DNA of 64,000 bases from Alistipes sp. (GTDB taxonomy: Bacteria; Bacteroidota; Bacteroidia; Bacteroidales; Rikenellaceae): positions 124,001 through 188,000 of the forward strand of contig JAGATC010000010.1 in assembly GCA_017621455.1 (NCBI GenBank), read 5' to 3'. The notes beneath the pieces were generated by a model that saw nothing but the letters and a program-made list of their open reading frames with translations, did not search any database and was not told the origin of the DNA. Every line of letters starts with the position of its first letter. The first letter of the stretch is position 1. Shown here piece after piece: positions 2,211-53,945 of this stretch. The position numbers and the translations under genes are program-made.

Positions 2211-4043
2211 TTAGTTGTTGTCGTTTAATGTGCAGTCGATGAGCGACATACGGCACTTGGCGCAGTCGAAGTCGAGGCGGTAGCGGTGGCGACCATGCTC
2301 GATGTAGAGTCTGTCGCGTAGCTTTGTCCCCTTTTTTAGGCACTCGCCAATCTCGCGGCGGATGCAGTAGCTCGACTCCATCACGCGCTCACCCACGGTT
2401 GATGCCCATAGGTCGAGGCCGTCGACGATATGTTCCACGCCGTGACGGGTGTAGAAGCGGCGGGCGAGTGAGTTGACCACATTGTGGTCGGCACCTAAGC
2501 GACGCTTGGGGTAGCGTGCCTCGCCCGTGTCGGTGCGTATATCGTGCTCTATGCGGCGGGTCATACGCTTTGCGGCAAGCATAGATAGTGCCTCGCGGCG
2601 TAGCTCGGCAAGGAGCTTGGCTGTGGCAAACCACTTGGCACCCTCAACCTCGACCTGAGTAACGCGGAAGATGGTGTCACCGCTCTTTGCCATCTGCTCC
2701 TCGGCTACCGAGCGCATCTTCTCGGCGCTCTTGGCGGCATCCAACGCTACCGAGCGTGTAGCCTCGGCCTCGAAGCCCTCGATGTCGGTATAGCGCACGG
2801 CGATACCCTCGGGGGTGAGCTTCAATTGGCACGTAGTATCTATGGCGCGGCGTGTGCGGCTACGCTCCACGGCCTGCGTGAAGCGGTGGTCGTAGTTGCG
2901 GTACACCTCCATGCCCGCCTTGATGCCATCCATGCGGTTGGGCTCGATGATGTTACCCTCGGCGCGGTTGACGTTGGTGCCAACGATGCCCTCGGGCGTA
3001 ATCACACAGATGCCATCACCCGCAGTCAGGGGTCGCTTGGCGGCAATCCTAAAGTCGCGCTTCGTGGTAGTCGCCACGCAGCCTATATACTCACCTACTG
3101 CCTTGGGCGTGAGGAACGATGCCACGCCGGCACGCTTGCCCGAGAACATATACTCGCCACCATCGCGCGAAAAGCTCTTCTTGGGGTCGGGTTCGAACTC
3201 TATCTCGGAGCGACCAACCGATGAGCGACGGCAGTCGGGGCGCGTAGCAAGCGCCTCATCTATCTTACGACGGTAGTAGCTTACGACGTTTTTGATGTAG
3301 TTGTTGTCCTTGAGGCGACCCTCAATCTTGAACGAGACGACGCCCGCATCTATGAGCTCTCCGATGCGCTCCGAGAGGTCGAAGTCCTTGACCGAAAGTA
3401 AGTGCTTGCCGCTGATGAGCTTCTCGCCACGCTCCGTCACGAGGTCGTAGGTTAGGCGGCAGGGCTGTGAGCACTCGCCACGGTTTCCCGAGCGCGTAGA
3501 CTGCGAGCGCGAGAGGTAGCAACGACCGCTGTGTCCCACACATATCGCGCCGTGGATGAAGCACTCGAGGTCGACGGTCGTAGCCTCGCGTATGGCGCGT
3601 ATCTCGTCTATCGATAGGGCACGCTCCAAGATGACGCGCGAAAAGCCACTCTCCTCGAGGAAGTGTGCCCCCTCGGGCGTCATGTTGTTCACCTGCGTTG
3701 AGGCGTGCAGCTCCACGGGGAGGTTCATCTCGCGGTAGGCCATATCCTGCACAATAAGGGCGTCGACGCCAATATCTATTAGGCGGCGTGCCAACGCCTC
3801 GGCATCCTTGAGCTCGCGCTCGTAGAGTATGGTGTTGAGCGTGACAAATACCTTAACGCCAAACAGATGGGCGTAATCTACCACACGTGCTATGTCGTCT
3901 GTGGAGTTTGTAGCGCCACGGCGTGCTCCGAAGTTGCTTGCACCGATGTATAGGGCATCGGCGCCGCAGTCTATAGCGGCGATGGCAGCCTCGTAGTCGC
4001 GCGCGGGCGACAGTAGCTCGATATATCGTTTGTGGTTGGTCAT
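2211..4043 (-). CDS. Peptidase U32 family protein (YegQ/TrhP/RlhA-like)
   Basis: 610 residues from the ATG at 4043. The U32 signature ECFIHGAICVGHSGRC lies at about residues 160-175, after a TIM-barrel-like N-terminus (ELLSPARDYEAA). Clustered cysteines (ECSQPC and, near the C-terminus, CAKCRMSLIDC) suggest an iron-sulfur site. Family members long called collagenases are now known in E. coli to work in prephenate-dependent hydroxylation of tRNA uridine (TrhP) or 23S rRNA (RlhA). A longer reading frame extends upstream to 4418 but crosses into serS on the other strand; ATG 4043 sits 19 bases from a good TACCTTTG promoter element, so it is the chosen start. First gene of the minus-strand unit. 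Confidence 0.88.
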   Translation of the reverse strand: MTNHKRYIELLSPARDYEAAIAAIDCGADALYIGASNFGARRGATNSTDDIARVVDYAHLFGVKVFVTLNTILYERELKDAEALARRLIDIGVDALIVQDMAYREMNLPVELHASTQVNNMTPEGAHFLEESGFSRVILERALSIDEIRAIREATTVDLECFIHGAICVGHSGRCYLSRSQSTRSGNRGECSQPCRLTYDLVTERGEKLISGKHLLSVKDFDLSERIGELIDAGVVSFKIEGRLKDNNYIKNVVSYYRRKIDEALATRPDCRRSSVGRSEIEFEPDPKKSFSRDGGEYMFSGKRAGVASFLTPKAVGEYIGCVATTTKRDFRIAAKRPLTAGDGICVITPEGIVGTNVNRAEGNIIEPNRMDGIKAGMEVYRNYDHRFTQAVERSRTRRAIDTTCQLKLTPEGIAVRYTDIEGFEAEATRSVALDAAKSAEKMRSVAEEQMAKSGDTIFRVTQVEVEGAKWFATAKLLAELRREALSMLAAKRMTRRIEHDIRTDTGEARYPKRRLGADHNVVNSLARRFYTRHGVEHIVDGLDLWASTVGERVMESSYCIRREIGECLKKGTKLRDRLYIEHGRHRYRLDFDCAKCRMSLIDCTLNDNN

Positions 4044-28630: not shown

Positions 28631-28662
28631 TTTGGAAAATTGGACATTTTGTTTTAATTTTG
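28631..28662 (+). promoter_or_regulatory. Bacteroidota promoter for the first twin lipoprotein
   Basis: TTTG at 28631-28634, a 20-base spacer and TAATTTTG at 28655-28662; start codon 28702 is 39 bases further. Confidence 0.55.
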
Positions 28663-28701
28663 TGATAGAAACCTATGTCTAACATTTTAAATTTTACAGT
28701 T

Positions 28702-28941
28702 ATGAAGAAGATTTTGGCTATTTTGGTTGCATGTGCATTTATCGTATCATGCCAGTGGTGGCACGAGACATTCTCATCACCCGAGGATTGTGTAAAGTGG
28801 TATGCTGAGCAGGTTGAAGAGGCCGTAAATGATGGCGATCAGGAGAGGGTAATAGAGCTTAGCGCTGATTTCTTGGAGTGGTATTCAGGACTCGATGAGG
28901 AGGATAGAGCGAAGGTTGATAACATGGACTTTGATTTCTAA
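28702..28941 (+). CDS. Small lipoprotein, twin 1
   Basis: 79 residues from ATG 28702 (an in-frame ATG at 28675 is less likely because the twin starts at the equivalent MKKILAIL). Lipobox around Cys16 (FIVSC), then QWWHETFSSPEDC, an acidic helical body (VIELSADFLEWYSGLDEEDRAKV) and no known domain. The first 89 bases are identical to the twin at 29107. It has its own promoter and terminator. Function unknown; envelope-anchored. Confidence 0.75.
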   Translation: MKKILAILVACAFIVSCQWWHETFSSPEDCVKWYAEQVEEAVNDGDQERVIELSADFLEWYSGLDEEDRAKVDNMDFDF

Positions 28942-29106: not shown

Positions 29107-29385
29107 ATGAAGAAGATTTTGGCTATTTTGGTTGCATGTGCATTTATCGTATCATGCCAGTGGTGGCACGAGACATTCTCATCACCCGAGGATTGCGCAT
29201 TGTGGTATTGCGAGCAGGTTGGCGAGGCTTACTTAGATGGTGACAGTGAGGAGGCATTGGAGCTTACCGCTGATTTCATGGAATGGTATGCAGGGCTCGA
29301 TGTTGAGGATAAGGTTAAGGTTGATGCTGTCATCGCTGAGAACGCTGGCTTCGATGACTACGGTTACGACGAGGATTACTGGTAG
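29107..29385 (+). CDS. Small lipoprotein, twin 2
   Basis: 92 residues. Its first 30 residues (MKKILAILVACAFIVSC then QWWHETFSSPEDC) are identical to twin 1, encoded by 89 identical bases; the rest is alike but diverged (EALELTADFMEWYAGLDVEDKVKV) and has an extra acidic, Tyr-rich tail ending DYGYDEDYW. Lipid-anchored, function unknown. The separate promoter and downstream hairpin mean the twins can be expressed independently. Confidence 0.8.
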   Translation: MKKILAILVACAFIVSCQWWHETFSSPEDCALWYCEQVGEAYLDGDSEEALELTADFMEWYAGLDVEDKVKVDAVIAENAGFDDYGYDEDYW

Positions 29386-47978: not shown

Positions 47979-48010
47979 TTTGGTAGCAACATATAATAGT
48001 AGTAATTTTG
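47979..48010 (+). promoter_or_regulatory. Bacteroidota promoter of the radical SAM/lipoprotein operon
   Basis: TTTG at 47979-47982, a 20-base spacer and TAATTTTG at 48003-48010, 22 bases before the first start codon. No other good promoter was seen until 53884, so it may drive all ten genes. Confidence 0.6.
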
Positions 48011-48031: not shown

Positions 48032-48655
48032 ATGAGACGACTACTTACCACACTATTTGTTTCCATTGCAGCGTGCGCACTCTCGTCGTGTGAGCGCGAT
48101 TTCTTGTCGCTATTCCACTTGGATGGTGAGGCCCCGATAAGCATAAAACTCTACGGCTCGCGCTACGATTTCGATGGGGAGAAGTTAAAGAGTGATGGTG
48201 GCGTATTCTCGCCTAACAACCACCCAGAGATGGTTATCTATAGTGAGGGCGGCTTCAAGTTCGACCTATATAGACATATAAGTGGCGCAGGCGATACAGA
48301 GGCTACGATATACTTCTCGCTTGAGAGTCCCAATGCAGACTTTGAGCTAAATAGAAGATATAGCCTCGCAACAGCGGACGAAGGCTACGCCTGCATAGAG
48401 TTTAAGGAGCGTGGCGAGACGGAGACCCTGCCCAGTGGCGGTACGGTTACCGACATTATCATCTACCGCTACAATGCTGTGAGTGGCCACATCATCTTCA
48501 CCGACCGCGAGCCCTATGGCGACGACTACCTATTTAGTGGCGAGTTTGAGTTTGTGGGGCGCACCAAAGATGGCGACGAGATAGAGGTGCGCCGTGGTAG
48601 GTTTAGCGACTGCCGTATATGCTTCTGCTACGATGTTGGCTGCAACGGGTGGTAG
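48032..48655 (+). CDS. Lipoprotein with Cys-rich C-terminus, first gene of the rSAM operon
   Basis: 207 residues. Lipobox ALSSC at Cys20, then a beta-rich body of no recognised family (APISIKLYGSRYDFDGEK, YFSLESPNADFELNRRYSLA) and a C-terminal end with four cysteines in CRICFCYDVGCNGW. It lacks DGEANGG, so it is not a member of the family that follows, but lies in the same transcript (39-base gap). Could be an extra radical SAM substrate or a partner; unknown. Confidence 0.7.
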   Translation: MRRLLTTLFVSIAACALSSCERDFLSLFHLDGEAPISIKLYGSRYDFDGEKLKSDGGVFSPNNHPEMVIYSEGGFKFDLYRHISGAGDTEATIYFSLESPNADFELNRRYSLATADEGYACIEFKERGETETLPSGGTVTDIIIYRYNAVSGHIIFTDREPYGDDYLFSGEFEFVGRTKDGDEIEVRRGRFSDCRICFCYDVGCNGW

Positions 48656-48693
48656 AGAGTGAGCGATGATATATAATATAAAGGTAAACGACT

Positions 48694-49134
48694 ATGAAGA
48701 AGCTAATCTATTTTCTGATGACACTTGTGGGTTTTGGTTTTACGAACTGCGAGGATAACCCATTTGCCCAGGAGGATGCCTACGGCTGCCCCTATTTGAC
48801 GTTCCGTATGACGGCACGTGTGGTCGACGAGGCGGGTAATCCCATTGAGGGTATTGGTGTTGGCTTCTCGGATGTTGGCATTTGCGCTTATAGCGATGTC
48901 GATGGCTATGTAGAGGTAGACAAAACCCTAATCCCAACACTAAAGGAGGTCTCCTTCATAGACACGGATGGCGAGGCGAATGGTGGCGAGTTCGAGACCC
49001 TCCAACTCGACATTACAGATAAGTTTGTGCAGCCAGGCAAGCCCTCGGGTGATTGGCACGATGTTGACTGGAAGGTCGAGTTGGGTGATGTCACTATGGT
49101 GCTTAAAGATAGTGATAAGGCTGATAACGAGTAA
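48694..49134 (+). CDS. Radical SAM-associated putative lipoprotein 1
   Basis: 146 residues. Lipobox around Cys19 (FTNC), then DAYGCPYLTF, ARVVDEAGNPIEGI (a carboxypeptidase-regulatory/CnaB-like beta-sandwich opening), SFIDTDGEANGGEFETLQL, and a last strand VELGDVTMVLKD. The same blocks occur in four or more neighbours. The family is annotated as lipoproteins associated with radical SAM enzymes; the modification is unknown. The invariant DGEANGG core and the early YGCP are candidate sites. Confidence 0.82.
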   Translation: MKKLIYFLMTLVGFGFTNCEDNPFAQEDAYGCPYLTFRMTARVVDEAGNPIEGIGVGFSDVGICAYSDVDGYVEVDKTLIPTLKEVSFIDTDGEANGGEFETLQLDITDKFVQPGKPSGDWHDVDWKVELGDVTMVLKDSDKADNE

Positions 49135-49145
49135 TGTATAGTGTT

Positions 49146-49586
49146 ATGAAAAAGCTAATGTACTTTCTGATGGCTCTTGTGGGCTTTGGTTTTACGAGCT
49201 GTGATGACGGTGGCATATTGCCCGCCGCGCCAGAGTATGGTTGTCCACACGTAAACTTCAGTCTTAAGGCACGCGTTGTCGACCAGTCGGGCGAGCCTAT
49301 CGAGGGCATTAAGGTTCAGGCAGGCTGGATTGATGGGCATACTAACCAAGATGGTGAAATCAAAGTTAACGGCACGGTATATCCTGGGGATCAGTATATA
49401 GCGATTTTCGAGGATATAGACGGCGAGGCGAATGGCGGAGAGTTCGAGACCCTCCGACTCGATATTACAGACAAGGTAGTGCAGACCAAAGAGGGCTCTG
49501 GAAGTTGGTACGATGGTGACTACGAGGCCGAGTTGGGTGACGTCACTATGGTGCTTAAGGATAGTAATCAGGCAGAAAACGAATAA
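49146..49586 (+). CDS. Radical SAM-associated putative lipoprotein 2
   Basis: 146 residues from ATG 49146, chosen because all family members start MKK or MKR at this point; ATG 49134, overlapping the upstream stop, is an alternative. Lipobox FTSC at Cys19, PEYGCPHVNF, ARVVDQSGEPIEGI, DIDGEANGGEFETLRL and ELGDVTMVLKDS. Close paralogue of member 1. Confidence 0.82.
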   Translation: MKKLMYFLMALVGFGFTSCDDGGILPAAPEYGCPHVNFSLKARVVDQSGEPIEGIKVQAGWIDGHTNQDGEIKVNGTVYPGDQYIAIFEDIDGEANGGEFETLRLDITDKVVQTKEGSGSWYDGDYEAELGDVTMVLKDSNQAENE

Positions 49587-49597
49587 TATGTAGCGCT

Positions 49598-50077
49598 ATG
49601 AAGAGGCTAATCTATTTTCTGATGGCTCTTGTGGGCTTTGGTGCTGCGGGCTGCGAGGAGTTTAGCGCGGCGGAGTATGGTTGTCCCAATGTTAACTTCC
49701 GTGTTACGGCGCGTGTGGTCGACGAGGCGGGTGAGCCTATCGAGGGCATCCGTGTGGGCATCTACCACGAGGAGTGGGATGGTGGCTACGCGTGTGAGGA
49801 CTTCGAGGATAGAACAGGTTATACCGACTATCAAGGCTGTATAGATGCCTACGGCTCGCCGTTTGACGTTCCGGATAAGTTGGTGATCGAGGATGTCGAC
49901 GGCGAGGCTAATGGTGGCGAGTACGAGACACAGATTGTTGATGTTGTAGGCTTCGAGCAGACCGAGGAGGGCTCGGGTCACTGGTATGGTGGCGCTTATG
50001 AGGTACACCTTGGCGATGTAACAATGAAGCTAAAGGCCACTAATAGTGAGGACAACAGCGAAACAGCTAAGGAGTAA
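49598..50077 (+). CDS. Radical SAM-associated putative lipoprotein 3
   Basis: 159 residues. Lipobox around Cys19 (AAGC), AEYGCPNVNF, ARVVDEAGEPIEGIRVGIY, a longer middle loop with further Cys (YACEDFEDRTGY, QGCIDAYG), DVDGEANGGEYETQ and LGDVTMKLKAT. Same operon, 11 bases after member 2. Confidence 0.82.
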   Translation: MKRLIYFLMALVGFGAAGCEEFSAAEYGCPNVNFRVTARVVDEAGEPIEGIRVGIYHEEWDGGYACEDFEDRTGYTDYQGCIDAYGSPFDVPDKLVIEDVDGEANGGEYETQIVDVVGFEQTEEGSGHWYGGAYEVHLGDVTMKLKATNSEDNSETAKE

Positions 50078-50082
50078 CGGCT

Positions 50083-50496
50083 ATGAGACGACTTATTTAC
50101 GGACTGTTTGCTGTGGCTCTGCTTGCTGCGGTGGGCTGCGAGAAGGAGGTCTCGCACGAGGATCAATACTTTGTATTGTGGTTCTCGACAACCGTCGTGG
50201 ACGAGGCGGGTGAGCCTATCCAGGGTATCAAGGCTGCGCCTGTGGATGGTGAGTTTGTGGGTCGCACGGGCTACTCCGACTACAAGGGTAAGATAAGCGC
50301 GAGAGCATACCTCACACCGCGCACCGAGTGGGCAGTATGCTTCGAGGATGTCGATGGCGAGGCCAATGGTGGCATCTACGAATCAACGACAATAACCATT
50401 AACCCAAAGGCGCCAGTGAAGCCCGACGATTGGGGCTTTGTTGGCAGCGATGTGGTTACCATCGAGAAGGTGGTACTAAAGAAGAGTAATAACTAA
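50083..50496 (+). CDS. Radical SAM-associated putative lipoprotein 4
   Basis: 137 residues. Lipobox around Cys19 (AAVGC). It keeps TTVVDEAGEPIQGI, VGRTGYSDYKGKIS and FEDVDGEANGGIYES, but the YGCP block is replaced by QYFVLWF and the last strand is changed (VVTIEKVVLKKS). So the DGEANGG core is retained and YGCP lost in this copy. Confidence 0.8.
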   Translation: MRRLIYGLFAVALLAAVGCEKEVSHEDQYFVLWFSTTVVDEAGEPIQGIKAAPVDGEFVGRTGYSDYKGKISARAYLTPRTEWAVCFEDVDGEANGGIYESTTITINPKAPVKPDDWGFVGSDVVTIEKVVLKKSNN

Positions 50497-50501
50497 TAAC
50501 T

Positions 50502-50846
50502 ATGGGAAAGCTACTTACGCGACTATTTGCGCTATTTGGCATGACGCTCACCTGCGTGGCGTGCTACGGCGTGGGCTACACGGAGTTTAAGCCCGAGTTT
50601 TCGGCGACGGGACGCGTTGTCGACGGGGAGGGTATGCCCATCGAGGGTATCGAGGCATCTATTGCACCGAATAAGACTACGACGGATGAAAACGGCCGCT
50701 TCTACATCAGTGGTAGGAGTCCGTATATCTACTTCCACGATGTCGATGGTGAGGCCAATGGAGGCGAGTTTATCGACCAACATATAGAGCTTGAGGTTGA
50801 GGGGCAACAGCTCGAGTTGGGAGATATAACGCTCGAGCGAGAGTAG
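50502..50846 (+). CDS. Radical SAM-associated putative lipoprotein 5
   Basis: 114 residues, shortest full member. The signal contains Cys18 and Cys21 (TCVAC), either of which may be lipidated. It keeps GRVVDGEGMPIEGI, FHDVDGEANGGEFID and a closing strand LELGDITLERE. It lacks YGCP; GVGYTEF stands in its place. Confidence 0.8.
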   Translation: MGKLLTRLFALFGMTLTCVACYGVGYTEFKPEFSATGRVVDGEGMPIEGIEASIAPNKTTTDENGRFYISGRSPYIYFHDVDGEANGGEFIDQHIELEVEGQQLELGDITLERE

Positions 50847-50900
50847 ATGGCTAATATTGAGCAATTTGTAAATCGAACAAATATAAAACATTTATAATAT

Positions 50901-51083
50901 ATGAAACGACTACTTATATTTGCGCTTGGACTGTTGGGCTTCTCGTTAGCGTCGTGCGTCGAGATGTATGGCTGTCCTACGCCTGTGCAACGACCCTCAA
51001 CCGAGGAGGATAAGAGCGAGGAGGAGGAGAATAGCACCGAGGGTGAGGAGGATAGTAGCGCTGAGGCAGCCTTTGAGAATTAG
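50901..51083 (+). CDS. Minimal YGCP lipoprotein with acidic tail
   Basis: 60 residues. Lipobox LASC at Cys19, then VEMYGCPTPV and an acidic tail (TEEDKSEEEENSTEGEEDSS). It matches only the signal and YGCP block of the family; the VVDEAG and DGEANGG parts are missing. It is either a decayed relative cut by the repeat that follows or a minimal substrate. Confidence 0.65.
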   Translation: MKRLLIFALGLLGFSLASCVEMYGCPTPVQRPSTEEDKSEEEENSTEGEEDSSAEAAFEN

Positions 51084-51098
51084 CAACATCTGTATAGT

Positions 51099-51189
51099 CG
51101 TCATTCCGAGGGAGCGCAGCGACTGTGGGAATCTCATACCGAGACAACACACGAGATTGCCACGGCTTGTACCAAGCCTCGCAATGACG
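51099..51189 (+). repeat. Palindromic repeat of the CGTCATT family inside the rSAM operon
   Basis: It begins CGTCATTCCGAGGG and ends CCTCGCAATGACG; the ends are inverted repeats matching at 12 of 13 positions. The inner GAATCTC...GAGATTGCCACGG is also inverted. A different family from the GTCATCCTGAG repeats. Confidence 0.75.
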
Positions 51190-51219
51190 AGAGTATAATA
51201 TATTAATTATTAGGTGTAT

Positions 51220-51756
51220 ATGAAACGAATAGCAATAATCGTGGCATTGGGCGCGTTGGGTATCGCCTTTGCTGCGGCATCGCTCTGGGTGATGCTTAGC
51301 GGGGAGCGCAGTGCACGTGCCGTGCGCACGAAGTTCCGCATAGGTGGCGCTATGCTCACCCTTGCGTCAATGATTTCGCTCACCTCGTGTGGTGGGCCTG
51401 GCGACGAGTATGGCGTGTCGTGCTACGACCCTGCACCTCCTATAGAGAATGACCACCGTTGGAATCAGGGTGTAGCTAATAGCGAGCTTCGCAATGGCGA
51501 CAAGGTTGTGCTCTTCTACGAGTGCCGCTTCGGCAGTGAGGTAAAGGTGTCGCTCGTGACCGACGATGAGGGTGAAGATAGGGTGCTTTGCAGCCAGACA
51601 TATGAGGTAGTTAAGGGAGGAAATCAGCTTGAGTTTACCATCGAGGCTGGCGACTATCGCGGTCGTGCCCAGCTGTGCGTGGAGTACGACAAATATCAGG
51701 ATGGCGACGAGACTACCTGGCCTATGGGCGGTATCTTTGTAGCTATTGTAGACTAA
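51220..51756 (+). CDS. Lipobox-containing protein with extra N-terminal hydrophobic segment
   Basis: 178 residues from ATG 51220 (a GTG at 51214 would add two). Two hydrophobic stretches: IAIIVALGALGIAFAAASLW at the N-terminus and MLTLASMISLTSC, whose Cys57 looks like a lipobox. Then DEYGVSCYDPAPP, a variant of YGCP, and a beta-rich body (DKVVLFYECRFGSEVKVSL, GGNQLEFTIEAGDYRG). It directly precedes the first radical SAM gene (gap three bases), so is probably part of the same system. Confidence 0.68.
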   Translation: MKRIAIIVALGALGIAFAAASLWVMLSGERSARAVRTKFRIGGAMLTLASMISLTSCGGPGDEYGVSCYDPAPPIENDHRWNQGVANSELRNGDKVVLFYECRFGSEVKVSLVTDDEGEDRVLCSQTYEVVKGGNQLEFTIEAGDYRGRAQLCVEYDKYQDGDETTWPMGGIFVAIVD

Positions 51757-51759
51757 GTT

Positions 51760-52794
51760 ATGCTCTTTGCGCGTCGTAAAAAGTTGGAGTTGGGAGTGGT
51801 GGTATTCGAGCTTACGGATGCCTGCAATCAGGCGTGTAAGTTCTGCTACAACCACTTTAAGGGTGCCTCGGGCTATTGTACCCCCGAGCCTCCCGACTTC
51901 CGTGTGGCTGAGCGTACACTAAAAAAGCTCCTTAACGAGGCATCGATTGCAAGCCTCTCGCTCTCGGGTGGCGAGCCGATGCTTATGCCGCGCATCCACG
52001 ACCTTGTCTTTAAGGCGCGCTTTGCAGGCTCGAATGTCAATGTGCTCACTAATGGCACACTGCTTAAGGATGATGACATCGCCATATTCAACGACATTGG
52101 CGTGGCGATGATTCAGATACCCATCCTCTCTACCGATGCCGCTACGCACGATGCGCTCACCTCGCTTTCGGGCTCGTGGGAGCGCGCTACGGCTGCGGCA
52201 CGCAAGGTGGCAGCAACGCGTGCGGGGTGGCTTGCGCCAGTGCTGATACTCACGCACCAGAACCTCGCAACAATAGAGCCCACGCTGGAGCTATATGCCG
52301 AGCTGGGGGCGACCAACATCCTTGTCAACCGCTTCAATATCGGTGGCCTCGGCATAGGCAATGCCCGCGAGCTTGTGATGTCGCACGCTGAGCTACGTGA
52401 GGCATTCGCTCGCGCCAATGCCAAGCTGCAACAACTTAACCTTCGGGCGCATAGCGGAGTATGCACGCCGATGTGCGTGCTCAACCCTAAGGAGTATTCA
52501 AATATAACCTTTACGCACTGCACCACCGACCTACGTTCGCGACCACTCACGGTGAACTACCGTGGCGATGTGCGCTTCTGCAACCACTCGCCGCGCGTGT
52601 TGGGCAATATCCACCAAGAGTCGCTCGATGCGATTTTAGAGCGTTCGCAGTCGGATGGTTACTTTGCCTCACGCCCCGCGGAGTGTGCCTCGTGCACGCT
52701 GTGGGAGCGTTGCCGTGGAGGCTGCCGTGCCGCCTCGGAGCAACTATACGGCACTTTCGACCGTGTAGACCCAGTGCTTTCAACTGATAACTAA
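51760..52794 (+). CDS. Radical SAM/SPASM protein 1
   Basis: 344 residues. The [4Fe-4S]-SAM motif CxxxCxxC is ACNQACKFCY (Cys22, 26, 29), with LSLSGGEPML for SAM. The C-terminal SPASM-type region has several cysteines: GDVRFCNHSPRVLGNI and CASCTLWERCRGGC. Such proteins modify peptides or proteins, or act as metalloenzyme maturases. Immediately downstream of the lipoprotein family, and followed 14 bases later by a second radical SAM gene. Confidence 0.88.
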   Translation: MLFARRKKLELGVVVFELTDACNQACKFCYNHFKGASGYCTPEPPDFRVAERTLKKLLNEASIASLSLSGGEPMLMPRIHDLVFKARFAGSNVNVLTNGTLLKDDDIAIFNDIGVAMIQIPILSTDAATHDALTSLSGSWERATAAARKVAATRAGWLAPVLILTHQNLATIEPTLELYAELGATNILVNRFNIGGLGIGNARELVMSHAELREAFARANAKLQQLNLRAHSGVCTPMCVLNPKEYSNITFTHCTTDLRSRPLTVNYRGDVRFCNHSPRVLGNIHQESLDAILERSQSDGYFASRPAECASCTLWERCRGGCRAASEQLYGTFDRVDPVLSTDN

Positions 52795-52807
52795 CAACAA
52801 ACGATAT

Positions 52808-53884
52808 ATGGGAAAACGCATAGGACCGCGCCAATGGGTCGCGCTCAAGCTATTTAAGAAACTGCGCCAGATACGTCGCGATGAGCACATACTAAATACA
52901 CTTTTTTGGGAGTGCACCCTGCGCTGTAACTTGCAGTGCCGCCACTGCGGTAGCGACTGCCGAGTAGACTCCGCGCTAAAGGATATGCCGGCAAAAGATT
53001 TTTTCCGTGTGCTCGACAACGAGATTACGCCCAATGTCAACCCCAACAAGGTGCTTGTCATCCTCTCGGGAGGCGAGGTGCTTGTGCGTAAGGATTTGGA
53101 GGAGATAGGCATCAACCTCTACCGTCGTGGCTACCCTTGGGGTATGGTGACTAACGGTCTCGGCCTCTCGCGCCAGCGTCTCGACTCGCTTATCCGCTCG
53201 GGTCTGCACTCTATAACTGTCTCGCTCGACGGCTTCGAGGAGCACCACTACCATATCCGCCAAAACAAGGATAGCTTCCAGCGCGCTGTGGAGGCCATTA
53301 GGATGATTTCGGCCGACAAGGAGCTTGTCTCGGACGTGGTTACGTGCGTAACTCCCGCGCTGCTACCCCGCTTGGAGGAGTTTAAGGAGTTTCTATACTC
53401 GCTTGGCGTGCGCCAGTGGCGTCTCTTTACCATCTTCCCCGTAGGTCGTGCCGCTACCGACCCCACGCTACAGCTCAACGACGAGGAGTTCACCTACGTG
53501 ATGCAGTTTATCGAGCAGTGTCGTAAGGAGGGACGTGTTAAGGCATCATACGGCTGCGAGGGCTTCCTTGCGGGCTACGAGATGCGTGTGCGCACCAACC
53601 CGTTCGAGTGCTATGCGGGCGTGGGCGTCGCCTCTATTCGCGTCAATGGCGACATCTCGGGCTGTACCTCGGTGCGTGCTAACTTCACGCAGGGTAACAT
53701 ATATGAGGATAACTTCTGGGATGTGTGGCAAAACCGCTTCGAGAAGTTCCGCAACCGCGACTGGGCGAAGAAGGGCAAGTGTGCCGACTGCAAGATGTGG
53801 CAGTACTGCGAGGGTAACGGCATGCACCTCTACGACGATGACGAGAATCTGCTCGTCTGTCACTACCATAGACTAACCAAGTAG
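52808..53884 (+). CDS. Radical SAM/SPASM protein 2 (rSAM/lipoprotein system type)
   Basis: 358 residues. CxxxCxxC in LRCNLQCRHCGSDC (Cys40, 44, 47), VILSGGEVLVRKDLEEIG and VSLDGFEEHHYHIR; the SPASM region has ECYAGVGVASIRVNGDISGC and CADCKMWQYCEGN. The layout fits the family annotated as the radical SAM protein of the rSAM/lipoprotein system (TIGR04133 as I recall; not checked). Last gene of the operon. Unlike enzyme 1 its N-terminus has a basic, Trp-containing start (KRIGPRQWVALKLFKKLRQI). Confidence 0.88.
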   Translation: MGKRIGPRQWVALKLFKKLRQIRRDEHILNTLFWECTLRCNLQCRHCGSDCRVDSALKDMPAKDFFRVLDNEITPNVNPNKVLVILSGGEVLVRKDLEEIGINLYRRGYPWGMVTNGLGLSRQRLDSLIRSGLHSITVSLDGFEEHHYHIRQNKDSFQRAVEAIRMISADKELVSDVVTCVTPALLPRLEEFKEFLYSLGVRQWRLFTIFPVGRAATDPTLQLNDEEFTYVMQFIEQCRKEGRVKASYGCEGFLAGYEMRVRTNPFECYAGVGVASIRVNGDISGCTSVRANFTQGNIYEDNFWDVWQNRFEKFRNRDWAKKGKCADCKMWQYCEGNGMHLYDDDENLLVCHYHRLTK

Positions 53885-53914
53885 CATAAACATAATAGTA
53901 GTGATGATGGATGG

Positions 53915-53945
53915 GGACGCTTTGTAGCGTCCTCTTCCTTTTTTT
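53915..53945 (+). terminator. Terminator of the rSAM operon
   Basis: GGACGCT pairs with AGCGTCC (loop TTGT), then CTTCC and seven T. Confidence 0.85.

Follow-up and report, generated by a model that had tools for sequence, protein, structure and literature searches.

Two adjoining radical SAM modules in an Alistipes lipoprotein operon, and a possible splicease-like modification of exported lipoproteins

Introduction

Which proteins may be modified by the two radical S-adenosylmethionine (SAM) enzymes encoded at the end of a lipoprotein operon of Alistipes sp., and at which residues? The operon lies in a 64,000-nucleotide stretch of contig JAGATC010000010.1 (GenBank assembly GCA_017621455.1, positions 124,001 to 188,000), hereafter the window, and the source genome comprises 2.1 Mb in 22 contigs. 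Ten genes at window positions 48032-53884 encode eight non-enzyme proteins and two radical SAM/SPASM proteins. A first-pass annotation, made from the sequence alone, had read them as one system of eight candidate substrates and two enzymes, had pointed to annotated families for a radical SAM/lipoprotein system, and had suggested modification through Cys, Asp or Gly residues. All ten open reading frames (ORFs) of that annotation were recovered, all on the + strand. We find that two separate radical SAM modules adjoin at this locus, and that the lipoproteins linked to one of them share the tripeptide X-Tyr-Gly.

Family Assignment of the Enzymes and Lipoproteins

Gene 10 (rSAM2; 52808-53884) scores 577.3 bits against the NCBIfam profile TIGR04133 (curated cut-off 425). 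Genes 2 (48694-49134), 3 (49146-49586, with an alternative start at 49134) and 4 (49598-50077) score 53.6, 84.6 and 79.7 bits against TIGR04134 (cut-off 39.8). These hypoth_equivalog profiles define an NCBIfam rSAM/lipoprotein pair whose members here are over the cut-offs, adjacent and co-occurring, and the profile search thereby bears out the radical SAM/lipoprotein pairing of the first-pass annotation. The pair is known already by name only, its chemistry not assigned, and a literature text search returned no paper naming TIGR04133 or TIGR04134. Compared with the named system, this operon has five paralogous lipoproteins and a 60-aa one, with an unrelated module between.

The remaining lipoproteins are more distant. 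Genes 5 (50083-50496) and 6 (50502-50846) are TIGR04134-like and fall under its cut-off (30.6 and 29.9 bits), gene 1 (48032-48655) matches NF052634 (Riean_0653 family) weakly (28 bits, cut-off 57), and gene 7 (50901-51083) has no family match in the profile scan. For the lipoproteins, Pfam gave weak matches to Ig-like, carboxypeptidase-regulatory or dioxygenase-C domains, and for genes 9 and 10 both radical SAM and SPASM domains. As annotated earlier, these two are radical SAM proteins: both carry CxxxCxxC and a SPASM domain over the Pfam cut-off. Solved structures include only distant SPASM/rSAM relatives of either.

The two families also travel together, as the first-pass annotation would have it. 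In our sample of the order, all 18 genomes with TIGR04134 over the cut-off have TIGR04133, and in the family sample it is present in 37 of 39 TIGR04134 genomes, both exceptions being 84-85% complete. The Alistipes genome encodes a second TIGR04133 copy on contig C15 (L098, 7594-9045), which shares 63% identity with gene 10; the lipoprotein encoded immediately before it is 120 aa long and notable for MYGVPFPDG. Among named TIGR04133 relatives in the plasmid collection, the closest is from Parabacteroides distasonis (Bacteroidales; 60% identity).

A Tyr-Gly Motif in Lipoproteins Linked to TIGR04133

We took every upstream ORF with a lipobox from 58 TIGR04133 loci and counted as adjacent those within 260 bp of the enzyme gene. 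X-Tyr-Gly follows the lipobox in all 57 adjacent lipoproteins (53 loci), 38 of which have YGxP and 48 either YGxP or YGxxP; DxDGxxNG occurs in 16 of the 57. At least one X-Tyr-Gly lipoprotein is found in each of the 55 loci that have an upstream lipoprotein, and in 35 of these 55 the fetched stretch encodes no protein with DxDGxxNG. Among 50 background lipoproteins, drawn from random stretches of the same genome and the rest of the window, X-Tyr-Gly occurs in eight and YG(x)xP near the lipid Cys in none (linked versus background motif, Fisher p ~1e-21, a value inflated by the relatedness of the loci).

Two loci provide independent checks of this rule. In the spirochaete Treponema saccharophilum, which was not in the discovery set, the annotated lipoprotein beside TIGR04133 reads LTSCYGMPENYY (SCYGMPENYY), and in Parabacteroides distasonis the corresponding lipoprotein has CEYGSPHANF. 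The Treponema pair (L194) resides on plasmid pTS1 beside a gene for an Mpi-family DNA invertase, a setting that suggests horizontal transfer.

The first position of the motif is most often Met (33), followed by Cys (12), Glu (10), Lys (10), and then Leu, Ala, Val and Asp. In the Cys class the lipidated Cys is itself X (FQACYGTP). The residue following Gly may be T, V, C, S, P, I, G, A, M, Y or Q. Cys-based thioether chemistry was considered for TIGR04133 and rejected, given that only 5 of the 75 motifs have Cys after YG.

The placement of the motif bears on whether the tripeptide is the target at all. It could instead be that X-Tyr-Gly-x-Pro serves docking or sorting and that the enzyme acts elsewhere, on the lipid Cys region, another protein or a small molecule. 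Its position near the lipobox, beside acidic residues (CED, CDD, CEE) that resemble surface-export signals (PMC6222051), would suit this explanation. However, the motif lies anywhere between 0 and 74 residues from the lipid Cys, and a protein can have as many as three copies or one inside its domain, unlike a sorting signal, so that we regard this alternative as improbable. The acidic residues themselves follow the lipid Cys in genes 2-4 and recall the Bacteroides surface-export signal CS(D/E)2 (PMC6222051), which makes surface display of these lipoproteins plausible.

Many of the linked lipoproteins are small. Among 75 X-Tyr-Gly lipoproteins upstream of TIGR04133, 32 have 112 residues or fewer, and many substrates of 50-112 aa contain little beyond the lipobox and the motif. 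Ten short ones compared with TIGR04134 gave no score over the cut-off and two weak matches. The true TIGR04133 substrate class thus appears to be wider than TIGR04134, with many members sharing only X-Tyr-Gly, and the rule provides a means of finding many short substrates missed by the present profile.

At the Alistipes locus, the motif reads AYGCP in gene 2 (48778-48792), EYGCP in gene 3 (49233-49247), EYGCP in gene 4 (49673-49687; a second copy, AYGSP, lies within the domain), CYGVG in gene 6 (50562-50576) and MYGCP in gene 7 (50964-50978). Gene 2 is a proposed substrate of gene 10. In gene 6 the X of CYG is probably the lipidated Cys. Gene 7 consists of the lipobox, the motif and an acidic tail, and is predicted to represent the minimal substrate type. 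Gene 8 carries EYGVSCYDP, gene 1 has LYGSR, and the alignment places no X-Tyr-Gly after the Cys of gene 5. Lacking YGxP, genes 1 and 5 may therefore not be substrates, and gene 1 is probably not a core one.

DGEANGG, which the first-pass annotation had noted in five of the proteins, is indeed exact in genes 2-6, and across the aligned TIGR04134 proteins its D, D, N and G vary little or not at all. This conservation could mark it as the modified site, a reading to which we give very little credence: DGEANGG is missing from the same 35 loci as above and from the short substrates. We rejected it as the modified core on the ground of its absence from most TIGR04133-linked loci. An AlphaFold2 model of gene 3, computed with the five window paralogs as input (pLDDT 73.7), points the same way. 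Residues 1-31 are disordered (pLDDT <50) and beta-sandwich strands begin at residue 36; E30-Y31-G32 falls in the tether and DGEANGG (92-98) in the domain. Its neighbors in the PDB, at modest scores, are teneurin, intradiol dioxygenase, the SusC N-terminal extension, TTR-52 and carboxypeptidase M domains. DGEANGG thus lies in a predicted beta-sandwich resembling SusC N-terminal and TTR/carboxypeptidase-regulatory domains, a location that suggests a loop with a structural or metal-binding role, and it probably is not the modified site. X-Tyr-Gly would be an exposed stretch between the lipid anchor and the folded domain. It fits better than the Cys, Asp or Gly residues proposed earlier, being constant beside the lipid anchor.

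A Second Radical SAM Module

Gene 9 (rSAM1; 51760-52794) has no NCBIfam equivalog. GeoRSP (TIGR04303) and PqqE are the best-scoring named families for it and most of its relatives, with GeoRSP reaching 98 bits for gene 9 and ~98-117 bits for its group against a cut-off of 400. Three relatives likewise fall under every curated NCBIfam cut-off. Its putative substrate partner, gene 8 (51220-51756, with an alternative GTG start at 51214), also sets it apart from GeoRSP and PqqE, as neither gene 8 nor the gene-8 family matches an NCBIfam or Pfam family at cut-off.

We gathered gene 9 relatives from the order, family and phylum samples. A gene-8-like protein is encoded directly before the gene 9 relative in genomes G242, G264, G263, G200, G163, G211, G254, G056 and G033, and directly upstream in most further rSAM1 loci. 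Elsewhere, for example at L050 and L116, the upstream protein differs and a Cys-Tyr is still present; it occurs in the adjacent gene of the examined rSAM1 loci with readable upstream sequence. Alignment of 12 gene-8 members shows C68, Y69 and G42 to be invariant, with Cys-Tyr usually in CYDP or CYEP (CYDP at 51421-51432 in gene 8). The 12 also share an N-terminal hydrophobic segment and a basic KxKFRxGG segment.

In G263, G200, G163, G056 and G033, the gene 8/gene 9 pair and TIGR04133 are on different contigs or in different regions. Because the pair occurs apart from TIGR04133 elsewhere, we read the locus as two modules: module A (TIGR04133 and its lipoproteins) and module B (genes 8 and 9). 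In G242 and G264 the pair is inside or beside the TIGR04134/TIGR04133 set, as it is here. An enzyme tree is consistent with this division, since the gene 9 and gene 10 groups are separate and each fully supported.

A single system of all ten genes, in which both enzymes would act on the same lipoproteins, is not without appeal. The operon is shared here and in G242, and gene 8 has both EYG (51406-51414) and CYDP. The two enzymes also co-occur without linkage: TIGR04133 is present in 7 of 9 rSAM1 genomes of the order sample against 27 of 139 (p 5e-4, relatedness ignored), in 8 of 9 in the family sample (p 0.01, relatedness ignored) and in the sole other rSAM1 genome of the phylum sample. However, modules A and B are apart in most genomes (L101, L103, L108, L114, L115), gene-8-like proteins outside G000 and G242 have no X-Tyr-Gly beside the CY motif, and most genomes with TIGR04133 have no rSAM1. 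A single ten-gene system was rejected on this basis, as module B stands by itself in most genomes, and joint action of both enzymes on the same lipoproteins seems unlikely to us.

Relation to PlpX-Type Spliceases

Anaerobic sulfatase maturases (anSME) are radical SAM/SPASM enzymes that modify a short motif in proteins for export. TIGR04133 differs from them in its tree branch, its motif and its substrates, which are not sulfatases. The nearer parallel is with the PlpX spliceases and their spliceotides, reportedly described by Morinaka and colleagues in 2018 and Scott and colleagues in 2022. Like TIGR04133, these are SPASM radical SAM enzymes; their target is X-Tyr-Gly, often then x-Pro, and they remove C8H9NO (135 Da) to leave a ketoamide. 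The X-Tyr-Gly feature of PlpX-type substrates is thus the one found throughout the adjacent lipoproteins. PlpXY acts at the natural sites MYG and LYG, and on tested tags with LYGLP or GYGLP (PMC10533398). The modification is widespread, works in proteins, and yields products that inhibit proteases (PMC11002830, PMC10373908). Scott et al. (2022, Chem 8:2659, as cited in PMC10533398), whose title speaks of “peptides and proteins,” predicted 939 splicease systems, and module A may already be among them.

The tree joins TIGR04133 with TIGR04103/TIGR03913-like sequences (Shimodaira-Hasegawa-like approximate likelihood ratio test, 93), apart from the rSAM1, anSME and AhbD-like sequences. We take TIGR04103 to be equivalent to IPR026482. 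TIGR04133 ranks third among the best-matching families for four of five TIGR04103/TIGR03913-like enzymes from the phylum, and fourth for the other. X-Tyr-Gly peptides are found beside some TIGR04103-like enzymes, such as LYGTPP in L120 and repeated KYGYP in L122. This enzyme relationship moderately backs a splicease-like module A. Unlike PlpX substrates, the TIGR04133 lipoproteins are exported and have no Nif11 or nitrile-hydratase leaders: the Pfam and NCBIfam scans found none, and the precursors have lipoprotein signal peptides.

In L122, a protein at 2955-3599, behind a TIGR03913/TIGR04103-like enzyme, contains six KYGYP repeats, five of which are KYGYPC; it is likely a multi-site splicease substrate. 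At a Flavobacterium-type locus (L118, 828-1251), two peptides of ~58 aa, which have PYGV and LYGV close to their N-termini, precede a TIGR03913-like enzyme. A single-protein scan aimed at PlpX returned only Flavobacterium and Kordia relatives of L118. An Agathobacter rSAM match has 28.8% identity.

Proposed Mechanism and Significance

Taking this evidence together, we lean, by a narrow measure, toward a mechanism in which TIGR04133 splices lipoproteins before export, between anchor and domain, and gene 9 acts on the Cys-Tyr of gene 8. Module A would comprise lipoprotein precursors (genes 2, 3, 4, 6, 7 and perhaps 8) and gene 10. The latter would act at X-Tyr-Gly just after the lipidation Cys; modification would precede export because the enzyme is a predicted cytoplasmic iron-sulfur protein. 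Excision of tyramine from the backbone would cost 135.07 Da. As X varies (Ala, Glu, Met and Cys at this locus), several ketoamides would result on the cell envelope, where they could plausibly be anchored protease inhibitors or reactive sites. In module B, the invariant Cys-Tyr in gene 8 would be the target of the gene 9 enzyme, whatever the reaction. The fuller version, in which TIGR04133 splices exported lipoproteins, genes 8 and 9 form an undescribed Cys-Tyr system and gene 8 is modified by both enzymes, is put forward tentatively and is rather doubtful.

A number of points weigh against splicing. A common motif alone is no proof of a reaction, and gene 5 belongs to the operon yet has no X-Tyr-Gly after its Cys. 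Three of the 58 TIGR04133 loci have no lipoprotein in the fetched stretch, and in Phocaeicola massiliensis (L196) none lies directly upstream of the TIGR04133 gene, where the substrate may be in trans. By score, gene 10 is not of the PlpX family (94.7 bits against TIGR04103, cut-off 725), and its scores for TIGR04053, AhbD and NirJ are slightly higher. The enzyme tree has few outgroups and no characterized PlpX among its sequences, and an X-Tyr-Gly peptide or repeat is nearby in only 3 of 10 TIGR04103-like loci. The PlpX partner PlpY, an RRE protein, was not seen among TIGR04133 neighbors and was not searched for elsewhere.

Substrates encoded apart from an enzyme have a counterpart in TIGR04134 lipoproteins with YGxP at L104, L107, L111 and L112, which have no adjacent radical SAM gene. 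As G200, G227, G239 and G241 carry a TIGR04133 gene elsewhere, these would be substrates in trans.

A different chemistry at the same residues is conceivable, though somewhat unlikely: TIGR04133 could join the Tyr ring to the residue after Gly in a three-residue cyclophane, alter the Tyr side-chain, or epimerize a residue of X-Tyr-Gly-x-Pro. SPASM enzymes carry out many reactions, TIGR04133 lies outside the PlpX family by score, and a constant Tyr-Gly with a usual Pro would suit these reactions too. However, X-Tyr-Gly itself is a known splicease target, and the post-Gly residue is highly variable, Gly included, which sits poorly with bond formation at its beta carbon.

This analysis contributes the two-module split, the X-Tyr-Gly rule with a broader set of substrates, the hypothesis of a splicease and the unnamed Cys-Tyr pair. 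The constant X-Tyr-Gly reduces the chemistry of the orphan TIGR04133/TIGR04134 pair to one question, a 135-Da loss at the motif. If splicing occurs, it would take backbone splicing past secreted peptides and into the membrane-anchored proteins of bacteria common in the gut. It would also place alpha-keto-beta-amino residues on the Bacteroidales envelope, where such ketoamides could act on proteases as cell-surface inhibitors. The locus also adds a second, unnamed enzyme-substrate pair in genes 8 and 9.

Organization of the Locus

The proposed boundaries of the operon agree with our scans. A promoter-like site, TTTG-N20-TAATTTTG (47979-48010, + strand), matches the Bacteroidota consensus and is one of five such matches in the window (0.22 expected), and an intrinsic terminator with a 9-pair stem and a T tract lies at 53913-53934 (+ strand). 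A lipobox-like Cys is present in all eight non-enzyme proteins, as had been noted; that of gene 8 comes after a second hydrophobic segment. An ortholog of gene 1 occupies the same place in G242.

Most gaps in this predicted operon are short, as described earlier, but ~130 bases separate genes 7 and 8. This interval is filled by a palindromic element (51098-51196, + strand; -43.7 kcal/mol, folding z -5.0 versus shuffles) that reads CGTCATTCCGAGG...CCTCGCAATGACG. No second exact copy was found in the window, or in the fetched loci away from the same place.

Two further small lipoproteins are encoded in the window at 28675-28941 and 29107-29385. They have a common N-terminus, KKILAILVACAFIVSCQWWHETFSSPEDC, and each has a promoter match of the Bacteroidota type ahead of it (at 28631 and 29036).

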